A DNA stretch of 34,808 nt from Candidatus Poribacteria bacterium (GTDB lineage Bacteria > Poribacteria > WGA-4E > WGA-3G): NCBI GenBank assembly GCA_009839745.1, contig VXPE01000090.1:1-34808 (forward strand), given 5' to 3'. Each line of letters opens with the position of its first letter. Within the stretch, counting starts at the first letter, position 1. The notes beneath the pieces were generated by a model that did not search any database, was not told the origin of the DNA, and worked only from the letters and a program-made list of their open reading frames with translations. Of this stretch, positions 1,061 to 27,393 are shown piece after piece. The position numbers were made by a program, and so were the translations under genes.

Positions 1061-2421
1061 ATAAAGGACTAAAAATTTTCATTACCTATGCACATAAAAA
1101 TTCAGAGGCAAAAGATAAATTGATAACCCACCTTGCCGTCATGAAGCAAAACGGATTAATTGATGTCTGGCATGACAACGAAATTCTACCCGGAGACAAG
1201 TGGCGGGATGCAATTTTCAACAACCTTGCCGATTCGGATATTTTACTCTATCTTACTTGCCCGTATAGTCTTGCTTCTGAAAATTGCAATAAAGAGTTGA
1301 CTGCTGCGTTAAATCCAAACATAAGAGTGATTCCGATTATCCTTGAACACTGCGATTGGCAAAATCACCAACTCAGCGAATTTCAAGCTCTTCCTGAAAA
1401 AGGCAAGCCAATTTATGATATTAGCGAATGGAATCCTGAGAGCAAAGGGTGGATGAGTGTGGTAGCGGGAATCCGAAAGGTTGTAAACGAAATGCAATCT
1501 CAAGCAAAGCCCTCACCCAGTGTAACACCTGAGGAAATAGAAACCCTTGCTTTCTTAGCGTTCCATCGGGGTAACTTCATGATGATGCTGGATCAAATAG
1601 ACGAAGCGTTAAAAGTCTACTCACGTGTAATCGAACTCAGCCCGAATAATGCTGAAGCCTATAACAACCGTGGATGTGCCTTTCAAATGAAAGGTGAGTA
1701 TAACCGTGCTACAGCAGATTATAGTAAAGCAATTGAAATATCGCCTGATTGTCCTATATTTTACAATAACCGTGGTGCTGCTTACAGTGCAAAAGGCGAG
1801 TATGACCGTGCTATAGAGGAACATAATAAAGCCATTGAAATAAATCCGAATCGTGCTAAACCCTATAACAATCTTGCTACTGCTTACAGTGCAAAAGGCG
1901 AGTATGACCGTGCTATAGCAGCATGCAATACAGCAATCAGAATTTCTCCTGATTATACCGATCCTTATGTTAATCGTGGAGTTGCTTATGGCGAAAAAGG
2001 TGAGTATGACCGTGCTATAGAGGAACATAATAAAGCCATTGAAATAAATCCGAATCATGCTACAGCCTATGCTAATAGAGGTAATACTTACAATAAAAAA
2101 GAGATGTATGACCATGCTATAGCAGATTGTAGTAAAGCGATTGAAATAGACTCTCACGATGCTTTTTCGTACAACAATCGCGGATTTGCTTATGGCGAAA
2201 AGGGTGAGTATAACCGTGCTATAACTGATTGTAATAAAGCGATTGAAATAGACCCTCATTATAGCAGTGCCTATAATACACGAGGTGTAGCTTACAGCGG
2301 AAAAGAGATGTATGAGCGTGCTATAGCAGATTTTGATAAATGTATTAGTCTAAATCCTTCCTATATGACTGCACGTAAAAATCGTAAAGATGCTTTTCTG
2401 TTGAGACGCCATGCAGAATAG
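1057..2421 (+). CDS. TIR domain-TPR repeat protein, probable defence effector
   Basis: 454 residues from a GTG start that overlaps the stop of the restriction-methylase gene by 4 bases. Residues 5-140 form a TIR domain: it opens with KIFITYAHKN, has the DNEILPGDKW loop, and continues to LASENCNKEL, where E80 sits at the position of the catalytic glutamate of NAD-cleaving TIR domains. From about residue 165 to the end there are roughly eight 34-residue TPR units (pattern AYNNRG..Y...GEYDRAI.D..KAIEI.P). In bacteria, TIR domains typically deplete NAD or make nucleotide signals when a sensor is triggered. I infer that the TPR array is the sensing or scaffolding part. Several TPR units are nearly identical at DNA level, a sign of recent repeat duplication. 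Activity and trigger are not shown by the sequence. Confidence 0.85.
   Translation: MNKGLKIFITYAHKNSEAKDKLITHLAVMKQNGLIDVWHDNEILPGDKWRDAIFNNLADSDILLYLTCPYSLASENCNKELTAALNPNIRVIPIILEHCDWQNHQLSEFQALPEKGKPIYDISEWNPESKGWMSVVAGIRKVVNEMQSQAKPSPSVTPEEIETLAFLAFHRGNFMMMLDQIDEALKVYSRVIELSPNNAEAYNNRGCAFQMKGEYNRATADYSKAIEISPDCPIFYNNRGAAYSAKGEYDRAIEEHNKAIEINPNRAKPYNNLATAYSAKGEYDRAIAACNTAIRISPDYTDPYVNRGVAYGEKGEYDRAIEEHNKAIEINPNHATAYANRGNTYNKKEMYDHAIADCSKAIEIDSHDAFSYNNRGFAYGEKGEYNRAITDCNKAIEIDPHYSSAYNTRGVAYSGKEMYERAIADFDKCISLNPSYMTARKNRKDAFLLRRHAE
1779..2056 (+). repeat. Near-identical DNA copies of TPR units
   Basis: Inside the TIR-TPR gene, the 55 bases at 1798-1852 recur exactly at 2002-2056, an offset of 204 bases (two 34-codon units). 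The 38 bases at 1779-1816 recur exactly at 1881-1918, an offset of 102 bases (one unit). Protein-level TPR conservation does not require identical codons, so these look like recent unequal-recombination duplicates. Confidence 0.8.
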
Positions 2422-2452
2422 TCAACATAAACCAAAATTTAAACGCAATAAG

Positions 2453-2473
2453 TGGTTAAAACGAATTTAACCA
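2453..2473. other. AT-rich 8-bp inverted repeat after the TIR-TPR gene
   Basis: TGGTTAAA (2453-2460) and TTTAACCA (2466-2473) form a perfect stem with a 5-base loop, 31 bases after the TIR-TPR stop. No T-tract follows, so it is a weak terminator candidate or an operator for the following FRG gene. Confidence 0.3.
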
Positions 2474-2521
2474 ATCCCAAAACTACTAATTGCGAAATTG
2501 TTTTCTTAACAGATAAATTGA

Positions 2522-2596
2522 TCAGGACTTACGCCCGAACAAATTAGTAAACTGCTTACACCGACAGTTCCAAATCCTCGGAGGGAAAGAAGATGA
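2522..2596 (+). pseudogene. Remnant of an FRG-TPR C-terminal tail
   Basis: The frame opens after a stop at 2519-2521 and reads SGLTPEQISKLLTPTV, then a short basic end, stopping at 2594-2596 across the ATG of the next gene. The PEQISKLLTPT core resembles the ends of the two FRG-TPR proteins in this window (PEDIAELLTPPTA and PEDLAALLTPP). No start codon is available, so I read it as the 3' stub of a lost paralogue. A chance match is possible because the peptide is short. Confidence 0.35.
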
Positions 2597-4245
2597 ACAA
2601 ACCCAGAGTTTTCGCAGACTTCCACAACACAGACGCAAAAGGCAGAGCGAGGTTGAACTGTGCCGGGACGATAGCGAATCTCGAACGTCAGGGAATTGCG
2701 CTGCAAGCTGGACAATCCCTTAGCATCTATAGCGAAGAGTTGGAGGTCGAAGGTGTTGTTCAATACTCGGAAGAAGAAAAATTGTGGACAGCAGTGATTG
2801 ATTGGAATGCTATTCAAGAGGTAGAACCTGTCACCTCTCAACTTACAATTCAGGACATCATCCGCGAGATAAAGAAAAAATCGAAAGGCGGCGGTTATAT
2901 CTATCGCGGTGAACGTAAATGTAATCCAAAAGTTTCCTCAAAACTCTATCGTGATTTTGAGATTGAAACTGGAAATTTTAATATAGACCTTGTCGAAAAA
3001 GAGATGCTGGCTGCTGCAAAAAAACATACAGGGGACCTCCCCCAGGACTTTCGCCTGGATGTCATGGCACCACCAAACGTGATAACGGCGTTAACAGAGG
3101 AAGCAAGAGATTTTGAAATTCTCACCGAAATCCAACACTACGGTGGTAAAACAAATCTAATTGACTTTACGACAGACTATTTCATTGCCCTTTTTTTTGC
3201 ATGTGATGGTCGTTATGACGAAGACGGTCGGGTTATCCTTCAAAAAAGAGATGAGATAAGCGACATGATCGCGCCCCCTCGGAATCCACGGCACCGTGTC
3301 ATTGTCAAAAAAAGTGTATTCATCAGACCGCCACGAGGCTTTATCGAGCCAGAGGAGAGTGATATAGTCACTATTCCGGCAAATCTCAAAGAACCGTTGC
3401 TCCAGCACCTGCGGGATTATCACGGCATATCCACAGAAGTTATCTACAATGACATCCATGGGTTTATTAGAAACCAAAATATTCATGGGGATGCGTATAC
3501 ACACTTTTATAGAGGTTTTGCCTGTCAAAATAGAGCAAATGAAGCACCAACACCTGAAGAAAAACAATGGCAATATGAAGAAGCTATTTCGCATTTTACC
3601 AAGGCAATAAAATTAAAACCCGATTCTGCCGAGGCCTACATCAATCGGGGTATTGCTTACTATAAGAAAAATGATTTTGATAACGCCATAAAAGATTTTG
3701 TCAAGGCGATACAACTGAAACCCGATTCTGCCGAGGCATATTTCAATCGGGGCAATGCTTATGATAAGAAAGCGCAGTTTGATAATGCCATCAGAGACTA
3801 TACAGAAGCAATAAGACTCAACCCAGACGACGTTAGGACCTATTACAATCGAGGCAATACTTACTACGAAAAAGGTGATTTTGATAACGCCATAAATGAC
3901 TATACAGAAGCAATAAGACTCAACCCCGATCTTGCCGAGGCGCATCACAATCGCGGTGTTTTTTACGTAAAAAAAGGCGAGTTTGATAACGCTATCAACG
4001 ACTATACCAAAGCGATAGAACTAAAATCTGACTATGCTGATGCTTATCATAACCGCGGTGAAGCACGGTTGCATCTGCAAGAATGGGAAAAAGCAAAATC
4101 AGACCTCATCACTGCCAAAGAGATGGATGTGTATATCATCGCTGCATTCCATAACGACTGCGAAAACGTTGAAGATTTTGAGCAGAAAACTGGTATTCAG
4201 TTGCCAGAGGACATTGCCGAACTGCTAACACCGCCGACAGCATAG
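2593..4245 (+). CDS. FRG domain-TPR repeat protein
   Basis: 550 residues, with a strong ribosome-binding site (GGAGGG at 2580-2585). Residues 1-80 are a small unnamed N-terminal module. Residues about 85-290 form an FRG domain: YRG at 104-106, then QHYGGKTNLIDFT at 181-193, followed by an ALFFACDG segment. FRG is a family of unknown biochemical function named after this F/Y-R-G motif, and it occurs often in defence neighbourhoods. From about residue 300 there are five or six TPR units (SAEAY.NRG..Y.....FDNAI.DY..AI.L.PD). The last 55 residues (LHLQEWEKAKSDL to PEDIAELLTPP) match the end of the second FRG-TPR protein at 7512-8759. It sits directly upstream of the Pycsar pair with a 35-base gap, so co-transcription is plausible. 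Its role is inferred only from context. Confidence 0.8.
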   Translation: MNKPRVFADFHNTDAKGRARLNCAGTIANLERQGIALQAGQSLSIYSEELEVEGVVQYSEEEKLWTAVIDWNAIQEVEPVTSQLTIQDIIREIKKKSKGGGYIYRGERKCNPKVSSKLYRDFEIETGNFNIDLVEKEMLAAAKKHTGDLPQDFRLDVMAPPNVITALTEEARDFEILTEIQHYGGKTNLIDFTTDYFIALFFACDGRYDEDGRVILQKRDEISDMIAPPRNPRHRVIVKKSVFIRPPRGFIEPEESDIVTIPANLKEPLLQHLRDYHGISTEVIYNDIHGFIRNQNIHGDAYTHFYRGFACQNRANEAPTPEEKQWQYEEAISHFTKAIKLKPDSAEAYINRGIAYYKKNDFDNAIKDFVKAIQLKPDSAEAYFNRGNAYDKKAQFDNAIRDYTEAIRLNPDDVRTYYNRGNTYYEKGDFDNAINDYTEAIRLNPDLAEAHHNRGVFYVKKGEFDNAINDYTKAIELKSDYADAYHNRGEARLHLQEWEKAKSDLITAKEMDVYIIAAFHNDCENVEDFEQKTGIQLPEDIAELLTPPTA

Positions 4246-4280
4246 CAAAAAACAAAAACTATCTTATTGGAAATTGATAA

Positions 4281-5198
4281 ATGATGGAAATGATTAACAG
4301 ATTTCGTGGAATGGAAAATTTCAATCGACTTATCTCAGCTTTACGTCAACAAACCATCATTCATGATAACGAAAATTTAACTATAGAATTGGCGAAGCAA
4401 GCTGAAATCCTTCAGTTTGAACCTAAGGGAGAACTAATCGCCCAAGATGGGACAGACGATGACCTCTATTTTATACTCGCCGGACGGCTTTCTATCGTTG
4501 TTAATGGGCGGGAAGTAGCAATCAGAAAATCCGGAGAACATGTCGGTGAAATGGCGTTAATTGATCCCTCTGCAAGGCGTTCTGCGTCCGTTATTGCCAT
4601 TGAACAAACAGTTGTTGCGAAAATCTCTGAGACAGCCTTCCGTCCATTGGCAGATGAATACCCCAGAGTATGGCAACTAATTGCCACAGAACTTGCTAAA
4701 AGGTTACAGCAAAGAAATAAGTTGGTACTTTCTACGAATCCACGCCCCGTTGTGTTTATAGGTTCCTCAACGGAATCACTCCCTGTTGCACGAGCAATTC
4801 GTTCCAATTTTGACCACGATGATTTTGTTGTAAATTTATGGACAGATAGAGTGTTCGGTCCTTCACGGTTTCCAATAACTGAACTTGAAAAACAGGTTCA
4901 AGAAGCCGATTTTGCGGTATTAGTACTTGGGACTGATGATTTTGTGAAAAGCCGTAACGAAGAATTTGATGCTCCTCGTGATAATGTAATTTTAGAGTTA
5001 GGACTATTCATCGGTGCCTTGTCACATGAGCGCACCTTTATGGTTGTCCCCCGCGGGGGCAATATTAAAATTCCTTCGGATTTGTTCGGACTCACTCCTT
5101 TGGATTATAGGTTAGAGAATTCCGATGACTTTATCTCCTTATTGGGTCCGGCATGCGATCTACTTCGGGATATTATTCACAAGATTGGTGTTAAGTAA
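4281..5198 (+). CDS. pycTIR: Pycsar effector PycTIR (cNMP-binding domain plus TIR-like domain)
   Basis: 305 residues. Residues about 35-150 form a cyclic-nucleotide-binding domain: the phosphate-binding cassette runs GEMALIDPSARRSASV, with E90 and R100 in the positions that hold the ribose and cyclic phosphate. Residues 155-300 are a TIR-like NAD-cleaving domain of the Cap12/PCTIR type (FIGSSTESLPVARAI, then APRDNVILELGLFIGAL), with E239 in the catalytic position. This is the architecture of the PycTIR effectors of Pycsar immunity, where cCMP or cUMP made upon phage infection activates NAD depletion and cell arrest. The cyclase gene starts 24 bases downstream. The start is an ATG-ATG pair without a clear ribosome-binding site, so translation may depend on upstream genes. 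Nucleotide specificity cannot be read from the sequence. Confidence 0.88.
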   Translation: MMEMINRFRGMENFNRLISALRQQTIIHDNENLTIELAKQAEILQFEPKGELIAQDGTDDDLYFILAGRLSIVVNGREVAIRKSGEHVGEMALIDPSARRSASVIAIEQTVVAKISETAFRPLADEYPRVWQLIATELAKRLQQRNKLVLSTNPRPVVFIGSSTESLPVARAIRSNFDHDDFVVNLWTDRVFGPSRFPITELEKQVQEADFAVLVLGTDDFVKSRNEEFDAPRDNVILELGLFIGALSHERTFMVVPRGGNIKIPSDLFGLTPLDYRLENSDDFISLLGPACDLLRDIIHKIGVK

Positions 5199-5222
5199 TT
5201 TCACACAAGGAGAATTGTTTTT

Positions 5223-5918
5223 ATGAGTTTAGTTAAGGATTATGCTGAAGCGGTAGAGAAAATATTTAAAGATACATGGACTACCCGGGACGGTCAAAAA
5301 GTTCCAGAGTCAGAAAATTTAGGGTTAGGTAACGATGCCGTAAAGTTAGATGGGACCGTACTATATGCAGATCTTGACGAATCTACAAATCTTGTGGACA
5401 ACTACTATCCTGAATTCGCGGCTGAAATATATAAGGCATACCTCAGTTGTGCTGCTAAGGTTATACGATCTGAGGGTGGTGAGATCACTTCTTACGATGG
5501 CGATCGTATCATGGCAGTATATATTGGTGAATCGAAAAATACTAAAGCCGCCCGTTCAGCATTGAAAATAAACTACACAGTCACCGAGATAATCAACCCT
5601 CTCATAAAAAAGCATTATCCTTCAACAAACTACCGTGTCAAACAAGTTGTAGGTATTGATACCAGCGATTTATTTGTAGCACGCACTGGTATACGGGGAT
5701 CAAATGATTTAGTTTGGGTTGGACGTTCAGCAAACTACGCAGCAAAACTATGTTCTCTTTCACCCGATTACCCATCACGACTGACTGAAACAGTGTACAA
5801 TCAATTATATGAGTCGCTTAAGTATTCAAATGATGGAAGGTCTATGTGGGAACTGGACGGTTGGGAAAATATAAATGGGATAAGGATTTATCGATCAACA
5901 TGGTGGTGGTCAATATAA
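5223..5918 (+). CDS. pycC: Pycsar class III nucleotidyl cyclase (PycC), pyrimidine cyclase
   Basis: 231 residues, with AAGGAG (5207-5212) 10 bases before the ATG. It is a single class III cyclase domain without membrane segments. The two metal-binding aspartates are present: D50 in TVLYADLDEST and D94 in SYDGDRIMAVYIG. The FAAEIYKAYL and GESKNTKAARSALKI stretches are, from memory, close to known PycC proteins rather than ordinary adenylate cyclases. PycC enzymes make cCMP or cUMP after phage infection and so switch on the partner effector, here the cNMP-binding TIR protein just upstream. Which pyrimidine is used cannot be decided here. The order effector-then-cyclase with a 24-base gap fits one operon. 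An ordinary purine cyclase is less likely given the partner. Confidence 0.87.
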   Translation: MSLVKDYAEAVEKIFKDTWTTRDGQKVPESENLGLGNDAVKLDGTVLYADLDESTNLVDNYYPEFAAEIYKAYLSCAAKVIRSEGGEITSYDGDRIMAVYIGESKNTKAARSALKINYTVTEIINPLIKKHYPSTNYRVKQVVGIDTSDLFVARTGIRGSNDLVWVGRSANYAAKLCSLSPDYPSRLTETVYNQLYESLKYSNDGRSMWELDGWENINGIRIYRSTWWWSI

Positions 5919-6048
5919 GTAGGCTGCCTCACCGGAGCAGTTAGGAATAGCCTAAATCACGAATTAAGTAAAAAATAGCGATTTTCTAATCCCCGTCCCC
6001 AGCCCATCTGTGATAATCTGCGATTTTGATTGCTTCGCAAAGTTGACG

Positions 6049-6077
6049 TTGACAAACGGATGCAAACATGGTATGAT
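6049..6077 (+). promoter_or_regulatory. Sigma70-type promoter of the stand-alone TIR gene
   Basis: TTGACA at 6049-6054 and TATGAT at 6072-6077 with a 17-base spacer. This lies in the 265-base gap after pycC and would leave a leader of about 100 bases before the ATG at 6184. It suggests the TIR gene is transcribed separately from the Pycsar operon. Confidence 0.6.
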
Positions 6078-6183
6078 TTAATAGTTAGAGGTATCCCGCA
6101 TTGTGGGCGGATGCAGTGGAATAAATTTATGAATCGCGGATTGCGCGGAAGATGGAGCTTGCAAGCATTTAAGAGGGTCAAAA

Positions 6184-7392
6184 ATGCAAAAATACGATGT
6201 TGCCCTATCATTTGCAGGAGAAGATCGAGAGTATGCTGAGACATTGAGAGATCTCCTAATAGCGGGGGGATATAAACCCTTTTATGATGAAGACGAGTTA
6301 GCAAGTCTTTGGGGCAAAAATCTCTATGACTACTTGTCAGAAGTTTACAAAGACCGAGCGCGCTATTGTGTGATGTTCCTGTCTAAGCACTACGAGCGAA
6401 AGTTATGGACAAATCATGAACGCCAGATGGTTCAAGCACGAGCATTTCAGGAAAACCGTGAGTATATTCTGCCAGTGCGTATTGATGATACAGAGATCCC
6501 AGGAATTCCACCGACGATTGGATACCTTGATTTACGTTTAATCACAATTGAAGAAGTATATGAGGCTTTAGATAAAAAGTTGTCGGGCACAACACCAAAA
6601 ACCGCTGCAACGGATCGAACGACTGCCAGTGTCGTTGAGCAAAACACAACTGAATATGTCTTGTTAGTCTCTGAAGATGGAAAGTCGTACTTCGTTCCAG
6701 TTCAAAAGGCACATTGGGATTCAATAGAAATTTCGCTTGAACTGCTTCCAGAATCTCCCGAAGAAACCGCTTTTCTGCGCACATTAAGAAGGCATATCAC
6801 TGATGCATTTGCAAGGGATGTTCATATTGCACTTGCACTCAGAGAAGATGCCGCGTGGGTGAAGCCCCAGGAAATTGTAGAAACCACATCCGATTCTCAA
6901 ATCGTTTGGAAAGTTGTTTTCAACAAAGAAAGACGCAGACAAAATGCAAATCCCCTTGGCGAAATGACATTTGGCAGTCTTTCACCGGACGAGATGGCTG
7001 AAATGCGGGCAAGGCGTATCTTACTTGACGAAAAATTAGGCGAACTCCCAGCAGATTTCCAGAACCGAACAGGCCCTACGGGTTTATTCAATGAAGTTAC
7101 ATTGGAAATGTTCATTCGTGGAGGGAACGGATTTCAAATTTCTGCCTCACCCATCCCATCCTTATATCGCTTTATTGGGAAAAGCCAAGGTCAATTTGAG
7201 AAGTTTGCCCGTTTAACCTCTGTCCTTTACCTGAAACTTTCACACACAGTTGAGGAGATACTTCAATTTGATTTGAAACTTTTGAATTCTGAACAGGTAG
7301 AAGTCAAATTTAAAGGACGTCGACGCAAACGGGCTGCGAACGAGCCTCCTCATATTTTTCAAGTTAATGGTACCTGCCAACTCTCTGAATAA
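6184..7392 (+). CDS. TIR domain protein with unrecognised C-terminal domain
   Basis: 402 residues, GAGGG a few bases before the ATG. Residues 1-135 are a TIR domain: YDVALSFAGEDREYAETLRD, then YDEDELASLWGKNL, then KLWTNHERQMVQARA, with E79 in the place of the catalytic glutamate of NAD-cleaving TIRs. Residues about 155-400 form a region I cannot assign. It has no membrane segment, TPR or obvious nucleotide-binding motif. It begins with a beta-rich stretch (YVLLVSEDGKSYFVPV), has a charged helical middle (DEMAEMRARRILLDEKLGEL), and ends in alternating strands with a basic patch (KFKGRRRKRAA). By analogy with other TIR effectors it is probably the sensor or regulatory half. A long hairpin follows the gene. 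Its role in defence is inferred from position and the TIR domain. Confidence 0.82.
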   Translation: MQKYDVALSFAGEDREYAETLRDLLIAGGYKPFYDEDELASLWGKNLYDYLSEVYKDRARYCVMFLSKHYERKLWTNHERQMVQARAFQENREYILPVRIDDTEIPGIPPTIGYLDLRLITIEEVYEALDKKLSGTTPKTAATDRTTASVVEQNTTEYVLLVSEDGKSYFVPVQKAHWDSIEISLELLPESPEETAFLRTLRRHITDAFARDVHIALALREDAAWVKPQEIVETTSDSQIVWKVVFNKERRRQNANPLGEMTFGSLSPDEMAEMRARRILLDEKLGELPADFQNRTGPTGLFNEVTLEMFIRGGNGFQISASPIPSLYRFIGKSQGQFEKFARLTSVLYLKLSHTVEEILQFDLKLLNSEQVEVKFKGRRRKRAANEPPHIFQVNGTCQLSE

Positions 7393-7405
7393 TCCACTTG
7401 TTGAA

Positions 7406-7444
7406 AGCTCAATATGCACCACTGTTGTAGTGGGATATTGAGCT
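7406..7444 (+). terminator. Long hairpin after the TIR gene
   Basis: Outer stem AGCTCAATAT (7406-7415) with ATATTGAGCT (7435-7444), then a small bulge, then inner stem CCACT (7419-7423) with AGTGG (7429-7433) and a 5-base loop. It starts 14 bases after the TIR stop codon. There is only a weak T-rich stretch further down (CCTTTT), so it may be a terminator, an mRNA 3'-end stabiliser or an operator for the next gene. Confidence 0.5.
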
Positions 7445-7511
7445 GCATCCACTGATCCTTTTCATCTAAATTCAAACAAAATCAAAACCCGAACGGGAAG
7501 AAATAATCATT

Positions 7512-8759
7512 TTGGAAGATCAGAATAACATCACTGCTAAAGCCATAAACAAATTCATAGAATGGGCGGCACAATTTAGCGATGGGCAATACCTGTTTCG
7601 TGGCGTTTCAACGGAAAGTTACAAAATAGAAGCATCTGCTTACCGCCGCCTGCCGGAAATTGACAGAAATAATCCGAGTCAATTACTCAAAATCAACAAG
7701 GATTTGATAGAAAAAGCGCGAAGCTTCGGACACGATCAGAGGAATGGACAGCAATTGTTCGATCTGGAACTCCTTGCCGAACTTCAGCACTTCGGGGCAG
7801 CCACTTGTCTGATAGACTTTACACGTAGTGCATTGGTCGCGCTCTGGTTTGCCTGCCAGCAAAGCACCAAAGGAGACACAAACGGTAAAGTCTTCGCTGT
7901 CCGCCACGATGATATGGTCCGGCTGAAAACGGTCAATCCTGAATTAATAAAAGAGGACATTGACTATTTTCTGAAACCGGACAAAAACGGTAGATACTTA
8001 CTATACCAATGGCAACCCAAACTTCAGAACAACCGTATTATCGCTCAACAATCTGTTTTTGTGTTCAGTGGTGCCCAAATTGAAGCTGAGGCTGAGTATA
8101 TCATCAAAAAAAGCAGTAAACAAGATATCTTAATATCTCTGGATAAAATATCAGGTATCACCGAAGCCAATATTTATCCTGATTTTGATGGGTTTGCTCG
8201 TCTGCATGCCCACGATGAACCGTACATTGAACCCGATCCCCAAGACTATTTACAGCGAGGTATTGAAGCTCACCAAAATGACAATCCGGATGATGCCATT
8301 GCATACTACACCGAAGTCATACGGTTAGATCCGACGGACATCTCTATTGTTTCCATAGCCTATTACAGTCGCGGCCTTGCTTACGGCGAAAAAGGCGAGG
8401 TTGACTCCGCTATTGAAAATTATAACGAAAGCATACAACTAAATCCAGATTTTGCCGATGCTTATAACTATCGTGGCATCGCTTACAAAAATAAAGGTAA
8501 GATTGACCGCGCTATTGAAGACTATGACCAAGCTATACAGCTCAAACCGGATAACGTTTCGTTTTATAACAATCGCGGCATAGCACTATTACACCTACAA
8601 GAGTGGGAAAAAGCCAAATCGGACTTGACAATTGCCAAGAACATGGGGGTAGATATTATTGCGTTATTTCAGAACTCATATTCAAGCGTTGCAGATTTTG
8701 AGCAAAGGTATAATGTCGAGATACCGGAAGACCTCGCCGCACTGCTAACACCTCCGTAG
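7512..8759 (+). CDS. FRG domain-TPR repeat protein (second copy)
   Basis: 415 residues from a TTG start; GGGAAG about 12 bases upstream is the only plausible ribosome-binding site. Residues 15-230 are an FRG domain: LFRG at 28-31, QHFGAATCLIDFT at 92-104, then a LVALWFACQ helix. Residues about 245-375 hold three or four TPR units (AYYSRGLAYGEKGEVDSAIENY). The last 55 residues (LHLQEWEKAKSDL to PEDLAALLTPP) closely follow the end of the FRG-TPR protein at 2593-4245, but the N-terminal 80-residue module of that protein is missing. The two are therefore diverged paralogues with a conserved TPR-plus-tail section. The function of FRG is unknown; a defence role is inferred from the surrounding TIR and Pycsar genes. 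Confidence 0.8.
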   Translation: MEDQNNITAKAINKFIEWAAQFSDGQYLFRGVSTESYKIEASAYRRLPEIDRNNPSQLLKINKDLIEKARSFGHDQRNGQQLFDLELLAELQHFGAATCLIDFTRSALVALWFACQQSTKGDTNGKVFAVRHDDMVRLKTVNPELIKEDIDYFLKPDKNGRYLLYQWQPKLQNNRIIAQQSVFVFSGAQIEAEAEYIIKKSSKQDILISLDKISGITEANIYPDFDGFARLHAHDEPYIEPDPQDYLQRGIEAHQNDNPDDAIAYYTEVIRLDPTDISIVSIAYYSRGLAYGEKGEVDSAIENYNESIQLNPDFADAYNYRGIAYKNKGKIDRAIEDYDQAIQLKPDNVSFYNNRGIALLHLQEWEKAKSDLTIAKNMGVDIIALFQNSYSSVADFEQRYNVEIPEDLAALLTPP

Positions 8760-19529: not shown

Positions 19530-19601
19530 GCCGGTGTAGCTCAGTGGAAGAGCAACTGATTCGTAATCAGTAGGTCGGAGGTTCAAATCCTCTCATCGGC
19601 T
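19530..19601 (+). tRNA. tRNA-Thr (anticodon CGT)
   Basis: 72 bases with acceptor GCCGGTG/CATCGGC (one G-U pair), D-arm GCTC/GAGC, anticodon stem ACTGA/TCAGT with loop TTCGTAA (anticodon CGT, reading ACG), T-arm GGAGG/CCTCT with TTCAAAT, and discriminator T. CCA is not encoded. Its last nine bases overlap the stop end of the minus-strand TPR gene. Confidence 0.93.
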
Positions 19602-20699
19602 TTCTGTTTCAGCGGCGACATCTTCTTCAAGGGATTTGATATTTGCCAAGACAGTCGGGTGCGGTTCGATTTTATACACTGTGCGGTACACTTCTAAAGC
19701 CGCTGCTTTATCCCCAAGGAAACTTGCATAAATTTCACCCATCCGTTCCCACGCCCGAACCTCCTCGGGATCAAGATCGACAATCCGTTCATAGACTTGC
19801 AGCGCATCCACATACTGACGTGTTTCTATATCCTCTCGCTCAAGCGCAGATGCACGGGAAAAAAGCAGGCGAACGAGATCGTCAACAACCTCGTTCATTT
19901 CAGGCATCTTTTCATGCGCCTGCTCCAAGAGGGCAATCGATGCCGATTCCAGGCGTGTAACCTCAGCCAAATCCTCTTCGGTGAATTCCCTATCAAGGAA
20001 CTGATAGCTCTGTAGCATTCTGGCATACGTTCTCGATAACTGGAGGCGAGCAAGGATACCGATAGGTGCTTTTTCAGAGGGGATGTTTAAAAGCTCTGGA
20101 TCGTTTTCAATTGCTTTCGTGTAGTACTTAGCAGCTTGTTCAAACTGCTTACTTCCCTGATAGAGAACGCCGAGGAGATAGTGTGCTTCAGCATTGTTTG
20201 GAGCACTCTCGAGCACAGCAAGGAATTCTTGGGTAGCTTCCGCAAGCAAGCCTTCATCACGAAACAGTTTACCGCGTAAGAGACGGACACCCGCATGTTC
20301 AGGCTGAATGCGCGATGCATATTCTAAACGTGCCTTCGCATCTTTCAACCAATTACTCTGTGAATAGATCTCCGCAATGCGGAGATTGGCGTGCAAACGA
20401 ACTTCCGCCCTCGTCTGTGAGATGCCGTTTATGGGAATCTCACGGACTGTATCCTGCGTTTCCAAGGCTTGTAAGGCTTGCCAATAGTAAAGGGCAGCAT
20501 CGGCAAGATCCTGTTTCTTATAGAGGGTATCTGCTTGCTGAATAAAAGCACCTACCTGTGACAATGGTGGCGATTCGGATTCCGCAGTCCCACGCCGAAT
20601 ATAAAAAAACGCAAGTCCAACAAAACCGATGACTGCCACCACTTCCGCGTAAAAAAGCCAACTCCGCAAGGAGACTAAGGATTTTACATTAAAGGGCAT
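19593..20699 (-). CDS. Membrane-anchored TPR protein
   Basis: 368 residues, with GAGGAGG just before the ATG. Residues about 14-34 are a single membrane segment (WLFYAEVVAVIGFVGLAFFY) followed by RRG, so the body probably lies outside the cytoplasmic membrane or the protein is N-terminally anchored. TPR-like helical pairs follow from residue 48: ADTLYKKQDLADAALYYWQAL, then HLLRG-type units around 140-210 (NNAEAHYLLGVLYQGSKQFEQAAKYY), then units at 290-350. No enzymatic domain is visible. It is the last gene of the minus-strand run after dsbD, 73 bases away, and may share its transcript. Its C-terminal codons reach 9 bases into the tRNA-Thr gene on the other strand. Confidence 0.75.
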   Translation of the reverse strand: MPFNVKSLVSLRSWLFYAEVVAVIGFVGLAFFYIRRGTAESESPPLSQVGAFIQQADTLYKKQDLADAALYYWQALQALETQDTVREIPINGISQTRAEVRLHANLRIAEIYSQSNWLKDAKARLEYASRIQPEHAGVRLLRGKLFRDEGLLAEATQEFLAVLESAPNNAEAHYLLGVLYQGSKQFEQAAKYYTKAIENDPELLNIPSEKAPIGILARLQLSRTYARMLQSYQFLDREFTEEDLAEVTRLESASIALLEQAHEKMPEMNEVVDDLVRLLFSRASALEREDIETRQYVDALQVYERIVDLDPEEVRAWERMGEIYASFLGDKAAALEVYRTVYKIEPHPTVLANIKSLEEDVAAETESR

Positions 20700-20772: not shown

Positions 20773-22617
20773 CTACAGGGGACGTTTTTCAATGTCCTCA
20801 AGGATGTCAAGCATCTCCTCCGGTCCAACAAATCCGGTGAATCGCTTGAGAAGGGTCCCGTTAGCATCCATGAAAATGACGACAGGTAATCCGGGAATCT
20901 GATATTTCTCGGTGAGTGCCTGCGTCGTTTCGGAGCTTCGGGTGAAATCGAGTTTAACATTTACATAATCATCGAGTTTCGCAGCGACCGCGGGATCGGC
21001 ATAAGTCTTATGATCGAGTTCTTTACACGCGGCACACCAAGAGGCATAAAAATCAAGCATTACGAGTTTGTCTTCGCGCGTGGCGATTTCAAATCCTTCG
21101 GCTTCGTCGTAAACCCAATCCAAGTGGGGGCCGGCAGGCTGTTGGATACCTCCAACAAACATATAGGCACCGAATACCGCCAGCAAAAGACCACACGCCT
21201 TTTGGAATTGCATCCGTGGAGAGATACCGCTGAAACGTTGGGTTAACTTACCTAGCCACACGCCAATGAGCACGAAACCACCGGCAATAGCGAAAAATGG
21301 TAGTGAGTTCTGTAGAAAATCCTGCAATGGTGGAAATACATCTTTGAGAAAGTAGAGTGCCATCGTAATAATGGCAATGCCGAAGACGTTTTCCAAAACA
21401 TACATCCATCCACCGGAACGTGGGAGTGCGGAAAGCGATCCAGAGAACGTCCCGATACCGATAAAGAGGAGTCCCATGCCGAGGGCATAAGTAAACATGA
21501 GCCAGAATCCGAGGAAGAGACTTCCCGTGGTTGCGATATAGGTTAGCACGACTGCCAACGCCGGTCCTGTGCAAGGTGCAGCGATCACCCCTGCGACTGT
21601 CCCCATAGCGAACGCGCCTGCAAACCCGGCACCCCCGACGGTGTTAAGGCGGTTCTGCACAGTGTATGGCAACCGAATCTCAAAAACACCGAACATAGAC
21701 AAGCCCAAGGTTACAAGAATGAGGCTAATGAAACCGACGACCCACGGGTTTGCCATTATCTGTCCAAAAACCGCTCCTGTCGATGCGACCGCTACGCCTA
21801 AAATTGAATAGGTCACAACAATCCCGAGCACATACACAACAGAAAGCAGAAACGATTTGAATAAGCCAGCAGACTCATTGGCACCGAAGATGGAAACGGT
21901 GATCGGTATGAGTGGATAAACACAAGGGGTCAAACTGGTCAAAATTCCGCCCGCAAATACAAGTATTAAGGCAAGCCAGACCTGTCCCCCAGAGAGTGCA
22001 CGGGCGAGACCTCCTGCGTTATCACTCGGCGGGGCACCGAATTCGACATTGGCGAAAATCGCCTCATTCGTCCGCTGAATGGGGTCCTCAATGCCAACGA
22101 CTTCAATAGGGACGGCAAAGGTGAGAACTTCGGGTAATAGACACTGCTCATCGTTACACGCCTGATATCTGAGTTCCATATCCAGCATAATAGGGGCAAT
22201 TGGAGCGGTCTGATTTAAATCGGCTTGGATACCGATAGTAATCGTGTCGTGATAGACCGGGGCTTCTCCTATTGAACCGAGTGCCAATACCTCCCCCTTG
22301 GGATATACGGCTTCACCGAAAGTAAGATGTGGTGTATCGGGGAAAATGACCTCGGTGGCGATCAATCCTTCACCCGCTGGAGTGGCGTTCACATGCCATC
22401 CTTGGGCAATTTCAACGACAACAGCAATTTGGAATTGGCTGCCCGGTTGAACCTTGTCAAGCGAGAGGTACCCCTTTACTGAGAGTTTTTCAACAGGGGG
22501 AGGGGCACCAAATCCGAAATCTGCAAGCTGCGCTTGAACAGGAGCAGAAGTTACCATTATGACAAGCACTAACAGTCCACAGCGTAAATATTTATCAAGT
22601 CTGATGGTTTCTAACAT
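20773..22617 (-). CDS. dsbD: Thiol:disulfide interchange protein DsbD
   Basis: 614 residues from ATG 22617, chosen because GAGGAG lies about 10 bases upstream and a signal peptide follows at once (LLVLVIMVTSAPVQA); the frame extends 24 codons further without a good start. All three parts are present: a periplasmic N-terminal domain with C154 and C159 (ACNDEQC), an eight-helix membrane core with C232 (LTPCVYPLIPI) and C349 (APCTGPAL), and a C-terminal thioredoxin-like domain with C528-A-A-C531 (ASWCAACKELD). DsbD carries electrons from cytoplasmic thioredoxin to periplasmic proteins, for disulfide isomerisation and cytochrome c maturation. The gene lies 47 bases after the PorX-like gene. Confidence 0.92.
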   Translation of the reverse strand: MLETIRLDKYLRCGLLVLVIMVTSAPVQAQLADFGFGAPPPVEKLSVKGYLSLDKVQPGSQFQIAVVVEIAQGWHVNATPAGEGLIATEVIFPDTPHLTFGEAVYPKGEVLALGSIGEAPVYHDTITIGIQADLNQTAPIAPIMLDMELRYQACNDEQCLLPEVLTFAVPIEVVGIEDPIQRTNEAIFANVEFGAPPSDNAGGLARALSGGQVWLALILVFAGGILTSLTPCVYPLIPITVSIFGANESAGLFKSFLLSVVYVLGIVVTYSILGVAVASTGAVFGQIMANPWVVGFISLILVTLGLSMFGVFEIRLPYTVQNRLNTVGGAGFAGAFAMGTVAGVIAAPCTGPALAVVLTYIATTGSLFLGFWLMFTYALGMGLLFIGIGTFSGSLSALPRSGGWMYVLENVFGIAIITMALYFLKDVFPPLQDFLQNSLPFFAIAGGFVLIGVWLGKLTQRFSGISPRMQFQKACGLLLAVFGAYMFVGGIQQPAGPHLDWVYDEAEGFEIATREDKLVMLDFYASWCAACKELDHKTYADPAVAAKLDDYVNVKLDFTRSSETTQALTEKYQIPGLPVVIFMDANGTLLKRFTGFVGPEEMLDILEDIEKRPL

Positions 22618-22664
22618 CGGTTCATTCTCCTCAGCGGAAGTACGCCATCGCGTGGCTCCCGAAA

Positions 22665-24320
22665 TTACCTCGGCTCCAGCACAACGCAAGGCAGAATCAT
22701 CTCCTCAAGTGAGACACCACCGTGTTGGAAACTGCCTTGAAATATCTCTTTATAGACATCGAAGCGTCTTGCATAAACTAAGTAGTAGTCCTCTTTTGCG
22801 AGGACATAACTCTTTCGGGCTTCTTCACCAGGTAAGCGATACGCCCCTGGTTCCTTTATGACCCATCCGGCTTCCGGTGCACATGAGATGTTTTTCCCTT
22901 CTTTAAACCGAAGTCCGGTTGTGAGTCCCGCTTGACTTGACACCTTCGCTGCATTTTGACAAAGGACGGAACCGTGGTCAGACGTTAAGACGACCGTCAT
23001 ACCGCGTTCAGCCGCAACTCTGAATATTCTATAAAGATGTGAATGCTGAAACCATGCGTGCGCCAGCGTCCGAAACGCTGCTTCATCTGGGACCAGCTGC
23101 TGTAGTAAACCCATCTCGTGTCGTGTATGTGTCAGCATATCAAGGAAGTCAACAACAAGTGCCGTCAAACTAACCCTATCAGTAACGTTCAGCCAGTGCA
23201 GATATTGAATTTCGCCGCGTGTGTCAAAAATCTTGAAGTAATGGAGCGGCGGCTTGAGAAGTATGCCGTGCCGCTCAAGTTGTAAGCGCATCAACTCTTT
23301 CTCATAGCGGTTGATACTCGTCTGTGTTGGGTCGGGTTCTGCGTATAGGTCTGGGTGCCTCTCAGCAAATTCAAGCGGAAACAACCCGCTAAAAATGGCG
23401 TTCCGCGCATAACGGGTCGCAGTTGGCAGAATGGAATAATAGTAATCTGTGGTTATATGAAACAACGGATACAGCAACGGCTCAATTTTCAGCCAGTGGT
23501 CCAACCGCATACAATCCATAACAACAAAGAGGACCTGCTTCCCTGCCTGAACTTCGGGAATGACATATCGATAAACGACATCCACAGATAAAGTGGGCGA
23601 TGCTTTACCTGCAAGCCAATTGTGATAGTTGGCTTGAATATAGTCAGCGAATGCAGCATTTGCCTCGCGTTTCTCCATCTCATGGATGGATTTAATTTCA
23701 TCAACGTTATGAAGTGTATCCAGTCGTAAATCCCATTCAACGAGGCGAACGTAAGTATCGATCCAGGTCTGCCAATCGTCGGTGGAGCCGCGCCGCTGCG
23801 TCGTGCCACCCGAGATCTGTGACCTGTTAAAGTGCTGCGCGTAAGCCTGCGGTGTATATGTTTCTCTGTTCGTCTGTTTTTCGAGTATAAGAGCGAGGGA
23901 TGTCTCTAACTGCCGAGACGAGGTTTCATCTTGATCGTCTGCCGTGCCTATGAGAATATGCCCAACATCGTAAAGACTCGCCTGCTGCAGCACTTCTTGT
24001 TCCTTCTCATGTGTTAGGAGAATAATAGGAACATGTGCATTTACGCTCCGAATATGCGCAAGCGGATTCCCTTCTCGTGTCTCCCCATCATAATTCAACA
24101 GGACAGCATGAGAGTCTTCGTCTTGGAGTAACGTGATGCCTTCGGTAATCGTATTTGTTACAGAAATATCGTATCCTCGATATTCCAGAAAGCGGATATA
24201 GGGCTTGGATGTTATATGGGTCTGTTCATCCCGATGTCGATTCTTAAGTTGTGCCTCAGAGAGATCTACATCAGATATTTGGTTATCAATCCACAGAAGT
24301 CTCCATCTTTTTTCCTGCAT
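22665..24320 (-). CDS. PorX-like protein: degenerate receiver plus PglZ phosphatase domain
   Basis: 551 residues from ATG 24320, with AGGGG at good spacing; an ATG 13 codons upstream lacks one. Residues 5-140 resemble a response-regulator receiver (LLWIDNQ with D12, then IILLT), but the phospho-accepting aspartate is N76 in AVLLNYD and the usual lysine is absent. Residues about 255-551 are a PglZ/alkaline-phosphatase-type domain as in PorX: D269 in VVMDCMRLDHW, YYSILPTATRYARNAIFSGLFP, VVDFLDMLTHTR, D448-H449 in TSDHGS, and QHGGVSLEEMILPCVVLEP, so the metal site looks intact. PorX regulates type IX secretion in Bacteroidota. Here, dsbD follows; no T9SS gene is visible. Confidence 0.82.
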   Translation of the reverse strand: MQEKRWRLLWIDNQISDVDLSEAQLKNRHRDEQTHITSKPYIRFLEYRGYDISVTNTITEGITLLQDEDSHAVLLNYDGETREGNPLAHIRSVNAHVPIILLTHEKEQEVLQQASLYDVGHILIGTADDQDETSSRQLETSLALILEKQTNRETYTPQAYAQHFNRSQISGGTTQRRGSTDDWQTWIDTYVRLVEWDLRLDTLHNVDEIKSIHEMEKREANAAFADYIQANYHNWLAGKASPTLSVDVVYRYVIPEVQAGKQVLFVVMDCMRLDHWLKIEPLLYPLFHITTDYYYSILPTATRYARNAIFSGLFPLEFAERHPDLYAEPDPTQTSINRYEKELMRLQLERHGILLKPPLHYFKIFDTRGEIQYLHWLNVTDRVSLTALVVDFLDMLTHTRHEMGLLQQLVPDEAAFRTLAHAWFQHSHLYRIFRVAAERGMTVVLTSDHGSVLCQNAAKVSSQAGLTTGLRFKEGKNISCAPEAGWVIKEPGAYRLPGEEARKSYVLAKEDYYLVYARRFDVYKEIFQGSFQHGGVSLEEMILPCVVLEPR

Positions 24321-24365
24321 ATTATGCCCCTTTTTTGGAATGTAGGTATGCCAAAGCACCCTACA

Positions 24366-24446: not shown

Positions 24447-25787
24447 CTAAATACTCGAAATGAACCGTCCTGGGTTCAACAAACCGGTCGGATCGAATTT
24501 CGCTTTAATCTGTTTCATTAAACTGAGCGTTCCTTCAACGGAACCCCAAACGTCAATATGCCGTTTAAGTTCGGGGGGTGCGATTTCTATGATGAGATTT
24601 CCCTGCTTCGACATGGCAGTTTGACGGAGTCGCGTCAGCGCATCCGCAAGCGATTGATAATCCGTGTCGGATGCTACAGGAATATTGACGGACACCACAC
24701 CACTCCCAAGCAACGCCATCATCTGGACATTCCGAGTCCAATTTGCCTCCACAATTTGCGTAGCAAATTCTGCAAGATCGGTGCGCTTCAGGTTCAATTT
24801 GGCAACGACGCTTTCGGTATTTTTGTCATCTGCTGAGAATTCCTGAACAGCCTCCTGAAGGTGCTGTACCGATTCGTCTTCTGCAATTGTCACACCTATC
24901 GCACCGTTTTGTTCCATAATTCCTTGACACTGCGTTAACTGCCACGCCACAGTCTCGGGATCCCCACCGAAACCAACCACCAGCATCGGCTTATTTTCAT
25001 CTGGGGGTGTCTCGGTTTTTGCACGTGTTGGATCCGAATTGACGAACAAGTTTACAAACATCGGCAATGTCTGTGAACCGACAATAGCCAAACCCGTGTC
25101 AGCTGCGTCCTGAACGTTCTGAAAATCTGCAGTAAGTATCGCTTCTTGGACGGGTATGGGAGACAACTTGAGGGTCACCTCGGTAATGATACCGAGTGTC
25201 CCGAACGCGCCAATATAGAGTTTGTTAAGATCGTAGCCTGCAACATTTTTTACCACTTTCCCGCCACTTTTGACAACCGTGCCGTTTGCCTGAACAACCC
25301 GCAACCCTAAGACCTGATTACGGGCGGTTCCGTGTCGTAAACGAAAAGAGCCACTCGCGTTTGTTGCTACTATTCCACCGATAGTGCAGCGGTCGGCGGA
25401 CGGTGGATTCAACACCAGATACTGACGATGCTTCGCCAACGCAGTCTGGAGGTCCTTTAAGCGGATACCTGCTTCTACGGTTACGGTTAAATCCGCAGGT
25501 TCATATTCCACCACGCTATTCAGGCGTGTTGTTGCGAGGACGATATCTACTTTTTGTGGCAAATTTCCGATACCAAGTTTCGTGCCGGCACCCGCTGGCA
25601 TAACCGACAAATTTTGGTTTACCGCAAATTGGAGGATCTCTTGTATCTCTTGAACAGAAGTCGGTAAAACGACCGCTTTTGGCACGTATCCATCAAAAGT
25701 GTAGGCTGCGACCTGTGCCTCCAGCAGGATTCCGGATTCGCCGACAATGCCCTGAAGTTCATCGTGCAATGCACGTGAATTTTCCAT
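24447..25787 (-). CDS. glcE: FAD-binding glycolate oxidase subunit (GlcE-like)
   Basis: 446 residues from ATG 25787, without a strong ribosome-binding site. It carries the PCMH-type FAD-binding fold: VLPTSVQEIQEILQFAVNQN, then MPAGAGTKLGIGNLP, then PPSADRCTIGGIVATNASGS and KNVAGYDLNKLYIGAFGTLG. The end, FDPTGLLNPGRF, is typical of this family. GlcE pairs with GlcD to form the flavin part of glycolate oxidase, which turns glycolate into glyoxylate and passes electrons to the membrane. glcD lies 128 bases upstream in the same direction. The iron-sulfur subunit GlcF is not in the window. At 446 residues it is longer than E. coli GlcE. Confidence 0.83.
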   Translation of the reverse strand: MENSRALHDELQGIVGESGILLEAQVAAYTFDGYVPKAVVLPTSVQEIQEILQFAVNQNLSVMPAGAGTKLGIGNLPQKVDIVLATTRLNSVVEYEPADLTVTVEAGIRLKDLQTALAKHRQYLVLNPPSADRCTIGGIVATNASGSFRLRHGTARNQVLGLRVVQANGTVVKSGGKVVKNVAGYDLNKLYIGAFGTLGIITEVTLKLSPIPVQEAILTADFQNVQDAADTGLAIVGSQTLPMFVNLFVNSDPTRAKTETPPDENKPMLVVGFGGDPETVAWQLTQCQGIMEQNGAIGVTIAEDESVQHLQEAVQEFSADDKNTESVVAKLNLKRTDLAEFATQIVEANWTRNVQMMALLGSGVVSVNIPVASDTDYQSLADALTRLRQTAMSKQGNLIIEIAPPELKRHIDVWGSVEGTLSLMKQIKAKFDPTGLLNPGRFISSI

Positions 25788-25915: not shown

Positions 25916-27349
25916 TTAAAAACTCCCGGCTGCGTCGTATGGCAAACCTAACTTCTCATAAGATTCGGCTGTGGGGAAAATCTTTCCGGGATTGCAGAGC
26001 CCTGTAGGATTAAAGACTTCTTTGACCGTCGCCATCACTCGCATATCAGCCGAACTGAAAATGAGAGGCATGTAATCCATCTTTTCAACGCCGATACCGT
26101 GTTCCCCGGTGATTGTGCCACCGACTTCTGCACATACCGTCAGGATCTCTTGGTTGACATGCTCTACACGTTCACACTGGTCCGCGTCTCGTTCGTTAAA
26201 GAGGACGATGGGGTGGATATTGCCGTCACCGGCGTGGAACACATTCGCGATGGGAATCTGATACTTTTCAGAGATTTCGGAGATCCGCCGTAGCACCTTC
26301 GGCAGCGTCGTCCGTGGCACGACCCCGTCCTGCGTAATGTAGTTCGGCGCAAGCCGCCCAAATGAACCGAACGCGCTTTTTCGTGCCTTCCAGAGTTGCT
26401 GTCGCTCCTCCTCATCTTTCGCGTAATCCACTTCCCGTGCGTTGTGCTCTTTAAAGATTTCCAAGATCTGATCGGTTTGGTTTTGCATACCTGCCTCAAT
26501 ACCATCGAGTTCCACAATCAGAATTGCCTCAGCATCAAGGGGGAACCCGAACTGGAAGGCTTCTTCTAAAGCACGAATGACGAGCGTGTCCATCATTTCA
26601 AGGGCAGCCGGAATAATACCTTCACCGATAATCGTTGAAACAGCGTTAGATGCATCGTCCATTGTCTCAAAGACAGCGAGCACCGTTTGGTACGCCTGTG
26701 GATTCCGGGTCAATCTGACGATTGCTTTCGTTACGATTCCAAATGTGCCTTCGGAGCCGATCATCACACCGCGCAGGTCGTAGCCGAGTGTTTCCTCAAC
26801 AGCGCCCCCCAATTCAACAATTTCACCATCCGGCAAAACCACTTCCAATCCGAGCACATGGTCGGAGGTAACACCGTATTTCAAGGTATGGGGTCCCCCC
26901 GAATTCTCGGCGATATTCCCGCCGATCGTGCATGCCTTCTGGCTTGAGGGATCCGGGGCGTAGTGATAGCCTTTGTTCTGCACCGCCTGTGTCAACAAGA
27001 GATTCACCACACCGGGCTCAATCACTGCGCGTTCATTTTCAAGATCTACTTCTAAGATGCGGTCCATCCGATTAAGGGCAATGATAATCCCACCTTGGAC
27101 AGAGAGCATCCCTCCACTCAAGCCGGTGCCGCCGCCACGGGCGATGAAGGGGGTATCGTATTTATTTGCCAACTTCACGATATCCGATACCTGCTGTGCC
27201 GTATCCGCGAAGACAACGACATCCGGCATCGCCTTAAAAGAAGGAGCCGCATCACATTCGTATACCGAGAGTGCAGTCGCATCCGTTAAGACATTTTTAG
27301 ACCCAAGGAGCGTAGAGAGGTCAGCAATGAGTTGTTCTTTCTGGTTCAT
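25916..27349 (-). CDS. glcD: Glycolate oxidase subunit GlcD (FAD-linked 2-hydroxyacid dehydrogenase)
   Basis: 477 residues from ATG 27349, which has AAGGA 8 bases upstream; an in-frame ATG at 27367 precedes that site. The FAD-binding part shows ARGGGTGLSGGMLS, then DPSSQKACTIGGNIAENSGGPHTLKYG and GSEGTFGIVTKAIVRL. The C-terminal substrate part has the metal-binding HAGDGNIHP and GEHGIGVEK motifs, and the NPTGLCNPGKIFP end. The enzyme oxidises glycolate or D-lactate-like 2-hydroxyacids. It is the first gene of a minus-strand pair with glcE. A D-lactate dehydrogenase role is possible, as the family members are hard to tell apart. Confidence 0.9.
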   Translation of the reverse strand: MNQKEQLIADLSTLLGSKNVLTDATALSVYECDAAPSFKAMPDVVVFADTAQQVSDIVKLANKYDTPFIARGGGTGLSGGMLSVQGGIIIALNRMDRILEVDLENERAVIEPGVVNLLLTQAVQNKGYHYAPDPSSQKACTIGGNIAENSGGPHTLKYGVTSDHVLGLEVVLPDGEIVELGGAVEETLGYDLRGVMIGSEGTFGIVTKAIVRLTRNPQAYQTVLAVFETMDDASNAVSTIIGEGIIPAALEMMDTLVIRALEEAFQFGFPLDAEAILIVELDGIEAGMQNQTDQILEIFKEHNAREVDYAKDEEERQQLWKARKSAFGSFGRLAPNYITQDGVVPRTTLPKVLRRISEISEKYQIPIANVFHAGDGNIHPIVLFNERDADQCERVEHVNQEILTVCAEVGGTITGEHGIGVEKMDYMPLIFSSADMRVMATVKEVFNPTGLCNPGKIFPTAESYEKLGLPYDAAGSF

Positions 27350-27393
27350 AGTCGATTCCTTCCGCATGGCAATTTCTGATTACGTTTGTATTT

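Follow-up and report, generated by a model that had tools for sequence, protein, structure and literature searches.

A PorX paralogue of Candidatus Poribacteria with a degenerate receiver, an intact PglZ zinc site and an altered phosphate cleft

The 34,808-nucleotide stretch analysed here (the window; contig VXPE01000090.1, positions 1 to 34,808, of the Candidatus Poribacteria bacterium assembly GCA_009839745.1) carries at 22665..24320 on the minus strand a gene that we term porXb. Its ATG start at 24320 and its end at 22665 fit a product of 551 amino acids, and the same frame stays open upstream to a GTG at 24359. The product, a paralogue of the response regulator PorX with a pseudo-receiver, consists of this receiver, a helical bundle and a PglZ domain. 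We use PorXb for the clade of the window protein and PorXa for the canonical paralogue, which is encoded in the same genome (141 contigs totalling 5.04 Mb, completeness 96%).

The identity of the protein was examined with profiles and structural models. The PglZ domain reached 60.4 bits against Pfam (cut-off 25), and the receiver stayed below the threshold of Response_reg, with 19.5 bits against a cut-off of 30.2. The five top sequence matches in the PDB were PorX-type response regulators aligned over nearly their full length (phmmer; best E 9.2e-88, fifth 8.4e-83). An AlphaFold model, built on 18 sequences with a mean predicted local distance difference test score (pLDDT) of 73.2 and a predicted template modelling score of 0.67, comprised a (βα)5 receiver, the helical bundle and the PglZ domain. 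When this model was searched with Foldseek, every one of the 17 top matches was a PorX chain, and VIA-align placed it on 8TFF with a Z of 41.8 over 496 residues (root-mean-square deviation 5.4), with Z values of about 15–17 for receiver-only rows. Genes of the PorXb type, at 68–76% identity, were found in named Candidatus Poribacteria assemblies among the matches listed (the best 80 of at least 591). The 'equivalog' profile NF052313 of NCBIfam (T9SS_RR_PorX), named for the type IX secretion system (T9SS), scored PorXb at 430.9 bits, over its cut-off of 300, and PorXa at 588.2; automatic annotation through this profile would mislabel the phospho-dead PorXb as PorX.

Receiver residues were counted in an alignment of 149 PorX proteins, 143 of them distinct, with an outgroup of 66 distinct proteins (one cut) from outside Poribacteria, taken from the 80 top-ranked among at least 591 relatives. 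We found that the window protein fails the pattern of a functional receiver, D-D-D-T-K: the five positions are filled by D12, N13, N76, T103 and G125 (D-N-N-T-G), compared with D11, D12, D57, T85 and K107 in the PorXa of the same genome. The second acidic residue of the pair D12-N13 (24282..24287; this and all other porXb features lie on the minus strand) was lost, N76 (24093..24095) stood in the column of the phospho-aspartate and G125 (23946..23948) in that of the switch lysine, the codons of N13, N76 and G125 being AAC, AAT and GGC. The original prediction, made from this sequence, had placed N76 at the phospho-site and reported the lysine missing, and both statements were borne out. In the model the topology was that of a CheY fold, with N76 closing strand β3, T103 closing β4 and residue 125 following β5. 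The alignment also revealed an insertion between β1 and α1 (residues ~17–38; 24207..24272), predicted to be disordered with pLDDT below 50 at residues 16–38, which occurred neither in canonical PorX nor in the PorXb of two related families (f2 and f4).

These losses extended to the whole clade. Every one of the 46 distinct full-length PorXb was without one or more of the five receiver positions' residues, and all five were present in 96 of the 97 other distinct PorX, the exception (L154) having its N-terminus cut off. Among the 46, the phospho-aspartate was lost in 43, the second acid in 39 and the lysine in 36; on the alignment, a chance origin of the losses is excluded. The losses were spread as a mosaic. 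In family f2 and genus g8 the second acid alone was missing (D-S/N-D-T-K), genera g5 and g7 had lost the phospho-aspartate alone (D-D-N/S-T-K), and the genus of the window genome had lost the second acid, phospho-aspartate and lysine and gained the insertion at residues 17–38, one of its members (L015) additionally lacking the first acid. Judged by its residues, the receiver of the window protein is a pseudo-receiver of the aspartate-less kind under the definition given in PMC12632262. The receiver-dimer residue L113 of Flavobacterium johnsoniae PorX (PorX-Fj), mapped by eye to T140, was uninformative, PorXa being already non-Leu at this position.

The PglZ half presented a different picture. 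We transferred PorX-Fj residue numbers by hand through the phmmer alignment to the PDB, and the zinc and catalytic residues described for that protein (D237, T271, D360, H364, D414, H415 and H499; PMC10951265) corresponded, in this order, to the zinc ligand D269 (23514..23516), the catalytic threonine T302 (23415..23417), the zinc ligands D394 and H398 (23127..23141), the ligand pair D448-H449 (22974..22979) and the ligand H533 (22722..22724). All seven residues of the two-zinc site were thus present in the window protein, in line with the earlier statement that the PglZ metal-site motifs are intact, and they were identical across 143/143 distinct PorX.

A difference appeared next to this site. 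The second sulfate of PorX-Fj sits in an auxiliary cleft with R275, K329 and N357 (PMC11320123). The arginine and lysine (R306 and K363 in PorXb) were retained in 143/143, and the asparagine was replaced in the window protein by D391 (23148..23150). This column held Asn in 26/26 PorXa, 66/66 proteins from other phyla and 5/5 members of family f5; among PorXb it held Asp in 36/36 of the own genus, and of the remaining 10, six had Gly and four Asp. Moreover, E370 and W376 (23193..23213), shortly after the strand at 360–364, were specific to PorXb, occurring in 46/46 of its members compared with 0/92 PorXa and other-phyla proteins. In PorX-Fj, the segment 358–369, which N357 directly precedes, is described as a zinc-dependent conformational switch (PMC11320123). 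The original prediction had omitted this pocket change at 391, as well as N13, the insertion at residues ~17–38 and the presence of PorXa in the genome.

Phylogenetic analysis placed the 46 PorXb in a single clade. Support was 100 in IQ-TREE (91 proteins: 78 from Poribacteria and 13 of the 65 complete outgroup proteins), whether the receiver columns were included or excluded, and 1.0 in FastTree (142 proteins). Sister to the clade, with support 100 for both column sets, was L050, a porXb-like locus in a genome (G052) from another family of the class, with gene coordinates 4505-6121. L050 keeps D-D-D-T-K intact and contains one in-frame TGA, which may mark a recent pseudogene or an assembly error. 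The receivers therefore formed a graded series, intact in L050, with one residue lost in f2/f4 and three in the own genus. Since L050 has D391, E370 and W376 yet an intact receiver, the pocket change probably came first and the decay of the phospho-switch afterwards. On the receiver-free tree the phospho-aspartate and the second acid each required at least two changes, and the lysine at least one; this repeated decay of the receiver inside one lineage suggests that phosphorylation was already dispensable in it before the decay. The PorX of family f5 grouped with PorXb, not PorXa (support 100 in IQ-TREE, 0.935 in FastTree). It was the single PorX of each genome wherever found whole, and a kinase cluster adjoined it in L051, L052 and L074, not in L054; its placement may reflect an old duplication with loss, or a transfer.

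We then compared the constraint on the two domains. For the receiver, the ratio of nonsynonymous to synonymous substitution rates (dN/dS) was 0.075–0.352 in 11 PorXb pairs versus 0.048–0.065 in 5 PorXa pairs, and for PglZ it was 0.031–0.099 versus 0.013–0.042 in the same numbers of pairs, the values being rough in those pairs whose dS exceeded 1. Mean identities of receiver and PglZ were 63% and 85% in 36 PorXb, and 86% and 88% in 14 PorXa. To judge by these substitution patterns, both PorXb domains are under purifying selection, the receiver being less constrained than that of PorXa.

PorXa is encoded at G000:C36:81874-83388 and shares with PorXb the domains, the catalytic residues and 44% identity; its receiver is complete (Pfam, 67.0 bits). 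The gene directly upstream of it encodes a histidine kinase (74.2 bits for HATPase_c; 23.4 for HisKA, below cut-off), and downstream lie an RNase G gene (Pfam) and genes read as those of ribosomal proteins L21 and L27, named by eye from their sequences. It had been considered earlier that the genome might hold an ordinary PorX with its kinase, to which the window protein is not related. The ordinary PorX beside a histidine kinase does exist, but the window protein is its paralogue. Among 60 related genomes, 58 had a PorX match of any kind and 46 had PorXb (counts read off the table of PorX matches), mostly alongside an ordinary PorXa. PorXb was present in 35 of the 36 genomes of the own genus (one copy being a fragment at a contig end), 10/14 in the rest of the order and 1/10 in the rest of the class; PorXa was likewise found in 35/36 of the own genus. 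One member of this genus (G018) gave no match, and another genome (G024) had two copies, on C175 and C42, from different sub-lineages (74% and 67% identity to the query), which may come from a transfer or from a mixed bin, the contamination value being 6.

The gene sits in a conserved block, glcD-glcE-(NUDIX)-porXb-dsbD. In the window, all on the minus strand, genes for the FAD-linked oxidase subunits of the glcD type (25916..27367) and glcE type (24447..25787) lie upstream, the latter 126 bases from porXb, and a dsbD-like gene for a thiol-disulfide transmembrane protein (20773..22689) lies downstream, followed by the usual next gene, encoding a TPR protein (19593..20699). The dsbD open frame overlaps porXb by 25 bases; its likely ATG start at 22617 is 47 bases beyond the porXb stop. 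We found a GlcE-type oxidase gene within two genes upstream on the same strand in 36/36 PorXb loci, and a dsbD gene downstream on the same strand in 33/36 (two were without it and one was at a contig edge). A NUDIX hydrolase gene was directly upstream of porXb in 10/10 f2/f4 loci (L040–L049), separated from it by -35 to 13 bases. The NUDIX gene was absent from 36/36 genomes of the own genus and present in 6/14 genomes without PorXb (G037, G038, G040, G042, G054 and G059), which rules it out as a constant porXb partner. No kinase-cluster gene adjoined porXb in any of the 36 loci, and such a cluster was directly upstream of the other PorX in 22/24 loci.

A search for T9SS genes gave a mixed result. 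The own genome had 32 matches to T9SS C-terminal sorting tails, and remote SprA-like proteins, about 2,200 amino acids long, were found in 60/60 genomes at E <= 0.001, one of which scored over the cut-off; that of the own genome, at G000:C42:96390-99860, scored below it, and the sortase-like proteins of this genome were likewise under their cut-off. The own genome gave no match to the GldL and GldM profiles. A divergent T9SS in Poribacteria, with a motor that escaped these two profiles, is likely, and the own genome may have either such a system or a different motor.

Compared with the PorX proteins of Porphyromonas gingivalis and F. johnsoniae (7PV7, 7PVK, 8TED, 8TFF and 8P6F), PorXb has the same full-length three-domain order, zinc ligands and catalytic threonine, but differs in the loss of the phospho-aspartate, second acid and lysine, in the insertion after β1, in the Asn-357 to Asp replacement and in having no adjoining kinase gene. 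From the PorXa of its own genome, which it resembles in domains and catalytic residues, it differs by that protein's intact D-D-D-T-K and its flanking histidine kinase and RNase G genes. With the PglZ of bacteriophage exclusion (BREX) systems it shares the fold and metal site (9zn5, Z 19.6 in VIA-align), but assignment to that family was rejected, the score of 81.7 bits against NF033449 being far under the cut-off of 250; no other BREX protein was detected among the window open reading frames run against Pfam or PADLOC. Pseudo-receivers, or atypical response regulators, make up several percent of receivers, and their activation is called an unsolved problem (PMC12632262). PorXb shares their aspartate loss and differs in its output, a PglZ phosphodiesterase; neither PglZ nor PorX is mentioned in the main text of that article. 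Pseudo-receivers and PorX are each already known, and we found no published pseudo-receiver PorX within the open-licence literature.

Evidence on regulation comes from PorX-Fj. Both its D54A mutant and its receiver-deleted form are reported to keep phosphodiesterase activity and zinc-driven dimerisation and to lose phosphate-driven dimerisation (PMC11320123), so by analogy a PorX without the aspartate should be an active, zinc-gated enzyme. Control by something other than aspartate phosphorylation, as originally proposed, is most likely, the D54A result being consistent with it. Short oligonucleotides, cyclic and linear, are the described substrates of PorX and of a BREX PglZ (PMC12205998, PMC11320123). 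We put at roughly 60% the probability that PorXb works independently of phosphorylation as a zinc-dependent phosphodiesterase on oligonucleotides, with a shifted substrate, gated by zinc or a partner and acting in glcDE/dsbD redox physiology. Such an enzyme would need no aspartate phosphorylation and would be free of kinase control; it would cut short cyclic or linear oligonucleotides in a zinc-dependent manner, with a substrate preference moved away from that of canonical PorX. Its dimerisation and activity would be set by zinc occupancy, by a protein partner on the degenerate receiver or by both, and its place would probably be in the redox processes served by the glcDE/dsbD block, in which its gene lies.

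Several points weigh against this reading. For T9SS function in P. gingivalis the enzymatic activity of PorX is reported to be non-essential and its zinc binding to be important (PMC11320123), and the altered auxiliary cleft may mean another substrate or a site that mainly binds zinc. The redox link may be just a lead from the gene neighbourhood. In addition, 3/46 PorXb (in f2 and g8) keep the phospho-aspartate and are without the second acid only, and weak phosphorylation may occur in these three. A fuller scenario is offered tentatively, as one that may well not hold in all its parts: a duplicated Poribacteria PorX would first have had its pocket re-tooled, with Asn changed to Asp or Gly in the auxiliary phosphate cleft, and then have abandoned phosphorylation on two or more occasions. 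The outcome would be a new branch of nucleotide-signal control, in which an independent oligonucleotide phosphodiesterase, gated by zinc or a partner, is linked with the glycolate-oxidase-like/DsbD redox block and, in sister families, coupled to NUDIX.

For the phosphodiesterase half of PorX, roles outside the T9SS have been suggested (PMC11320123). PorXb is a natural experiment on what this half does in cells, the enzyme having been kept and the phospho-switch dropped by selection: in a sponge-linked group of Poribacteria, one of two PorX copies is phospho-dead with an intact zinc site and a changed pocket. It adds to the pseudo-receivers one with an assayable enzymatic output, and it would receive from an 'equivalog' profile the name of a T9SS protein without being switchable like that protein. 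Were the fuller scenario above to hold, it would show that PorX uses its PglZ output for a cellular function apart from the T9SS and two-component signalling.

Among other explanations, the one we take most seriously, though still as an unlikely one, is that PorXb is mainly a partner or antagonist of PorXa, its degenerate receiver heterodimerising to tune T9SS control and its PglZ domain mostly holding zinc. Both paralogues co-occur in most PorXb genomes, PorX is an intertwined dimer whose zinc binding counts for more than its catalysis in living P. gingivalis (PMC11320123), and heterodimers of atypical regulators such as BldM–WhiI have been described. However, PorXb has diverged from PorXa to 44% identity and acquired residues of its own, every member retains the catalytic threonine, and the analyses run gave no evidence of contact. 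A decaying, functionless duplicate would explain why the receiver evolves faster than that of PorXa, why G018 has no match and why the basal copy, L050, is interrupted by an in-frame TGA; but retention in 35/36 genus genomes (one copy cut by a contig end), dN/dS far below 1 in both domains, the seven catalytic residues in 143/143 and the fixed neighbourhood make it improbable, and a pseudogene was rejected on selection and retention. Phosphorylation on D78 or another residue is about equally hard to credit. Residue 78 is acidic in 34/36 genus-level PorXb, being Asp in 29 and Glu in 5, but it is Asn in 2, and it lies two residues beyond the N76 column; the second acid and the lysine are also lost in 36/36. 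D78 was therefore ruled out as the phospho-site, and the reservation that it might fill it, which had accompanied the original prediction, did not hold.

The least probable explanation, which we regard as very unlikely, is that PorXb breaks down the cyclic pyrimidine nucleotides of a Pycsar system in the same window, a connection hinted at in the original prediction. The Pycsar pair itself is convincing and looks complete (4281-5918, plus strand), with a PycTIR effector (cyclic nucleotide-binding and TIR domains; PADLOC E 3.3e-105) and a PycC cyclase (E 2.3e-102, without a Pfam match). However, it is ~17 kb away from porXb, and 21/46 PorXb genomes lack PF10137, the family of the effector. This family was present in 25/46 genomes with PorXb versus 2/14 without, a difference confounded by kinship; within the own genus PorXb occurred in 35/36 genomes irrespective of PF10137, which 21 of these 35 carried. 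Furthermore, a PglZ enzyme is reported not to have cut cCMP, cUMP or the other cyclic mononucleotides tested (PMC12205998). On the co-occurrence and this published result, PorXb was rejected as a Pycsar component. Around the Pycsar pair the window holds a defence-like cluster (14-8759, plus strand) that includes a C-terminal piece of a type IIG restriction-methylase, a TIR-TPR protein, two FRG-TPR proteins and a second TIR protein.
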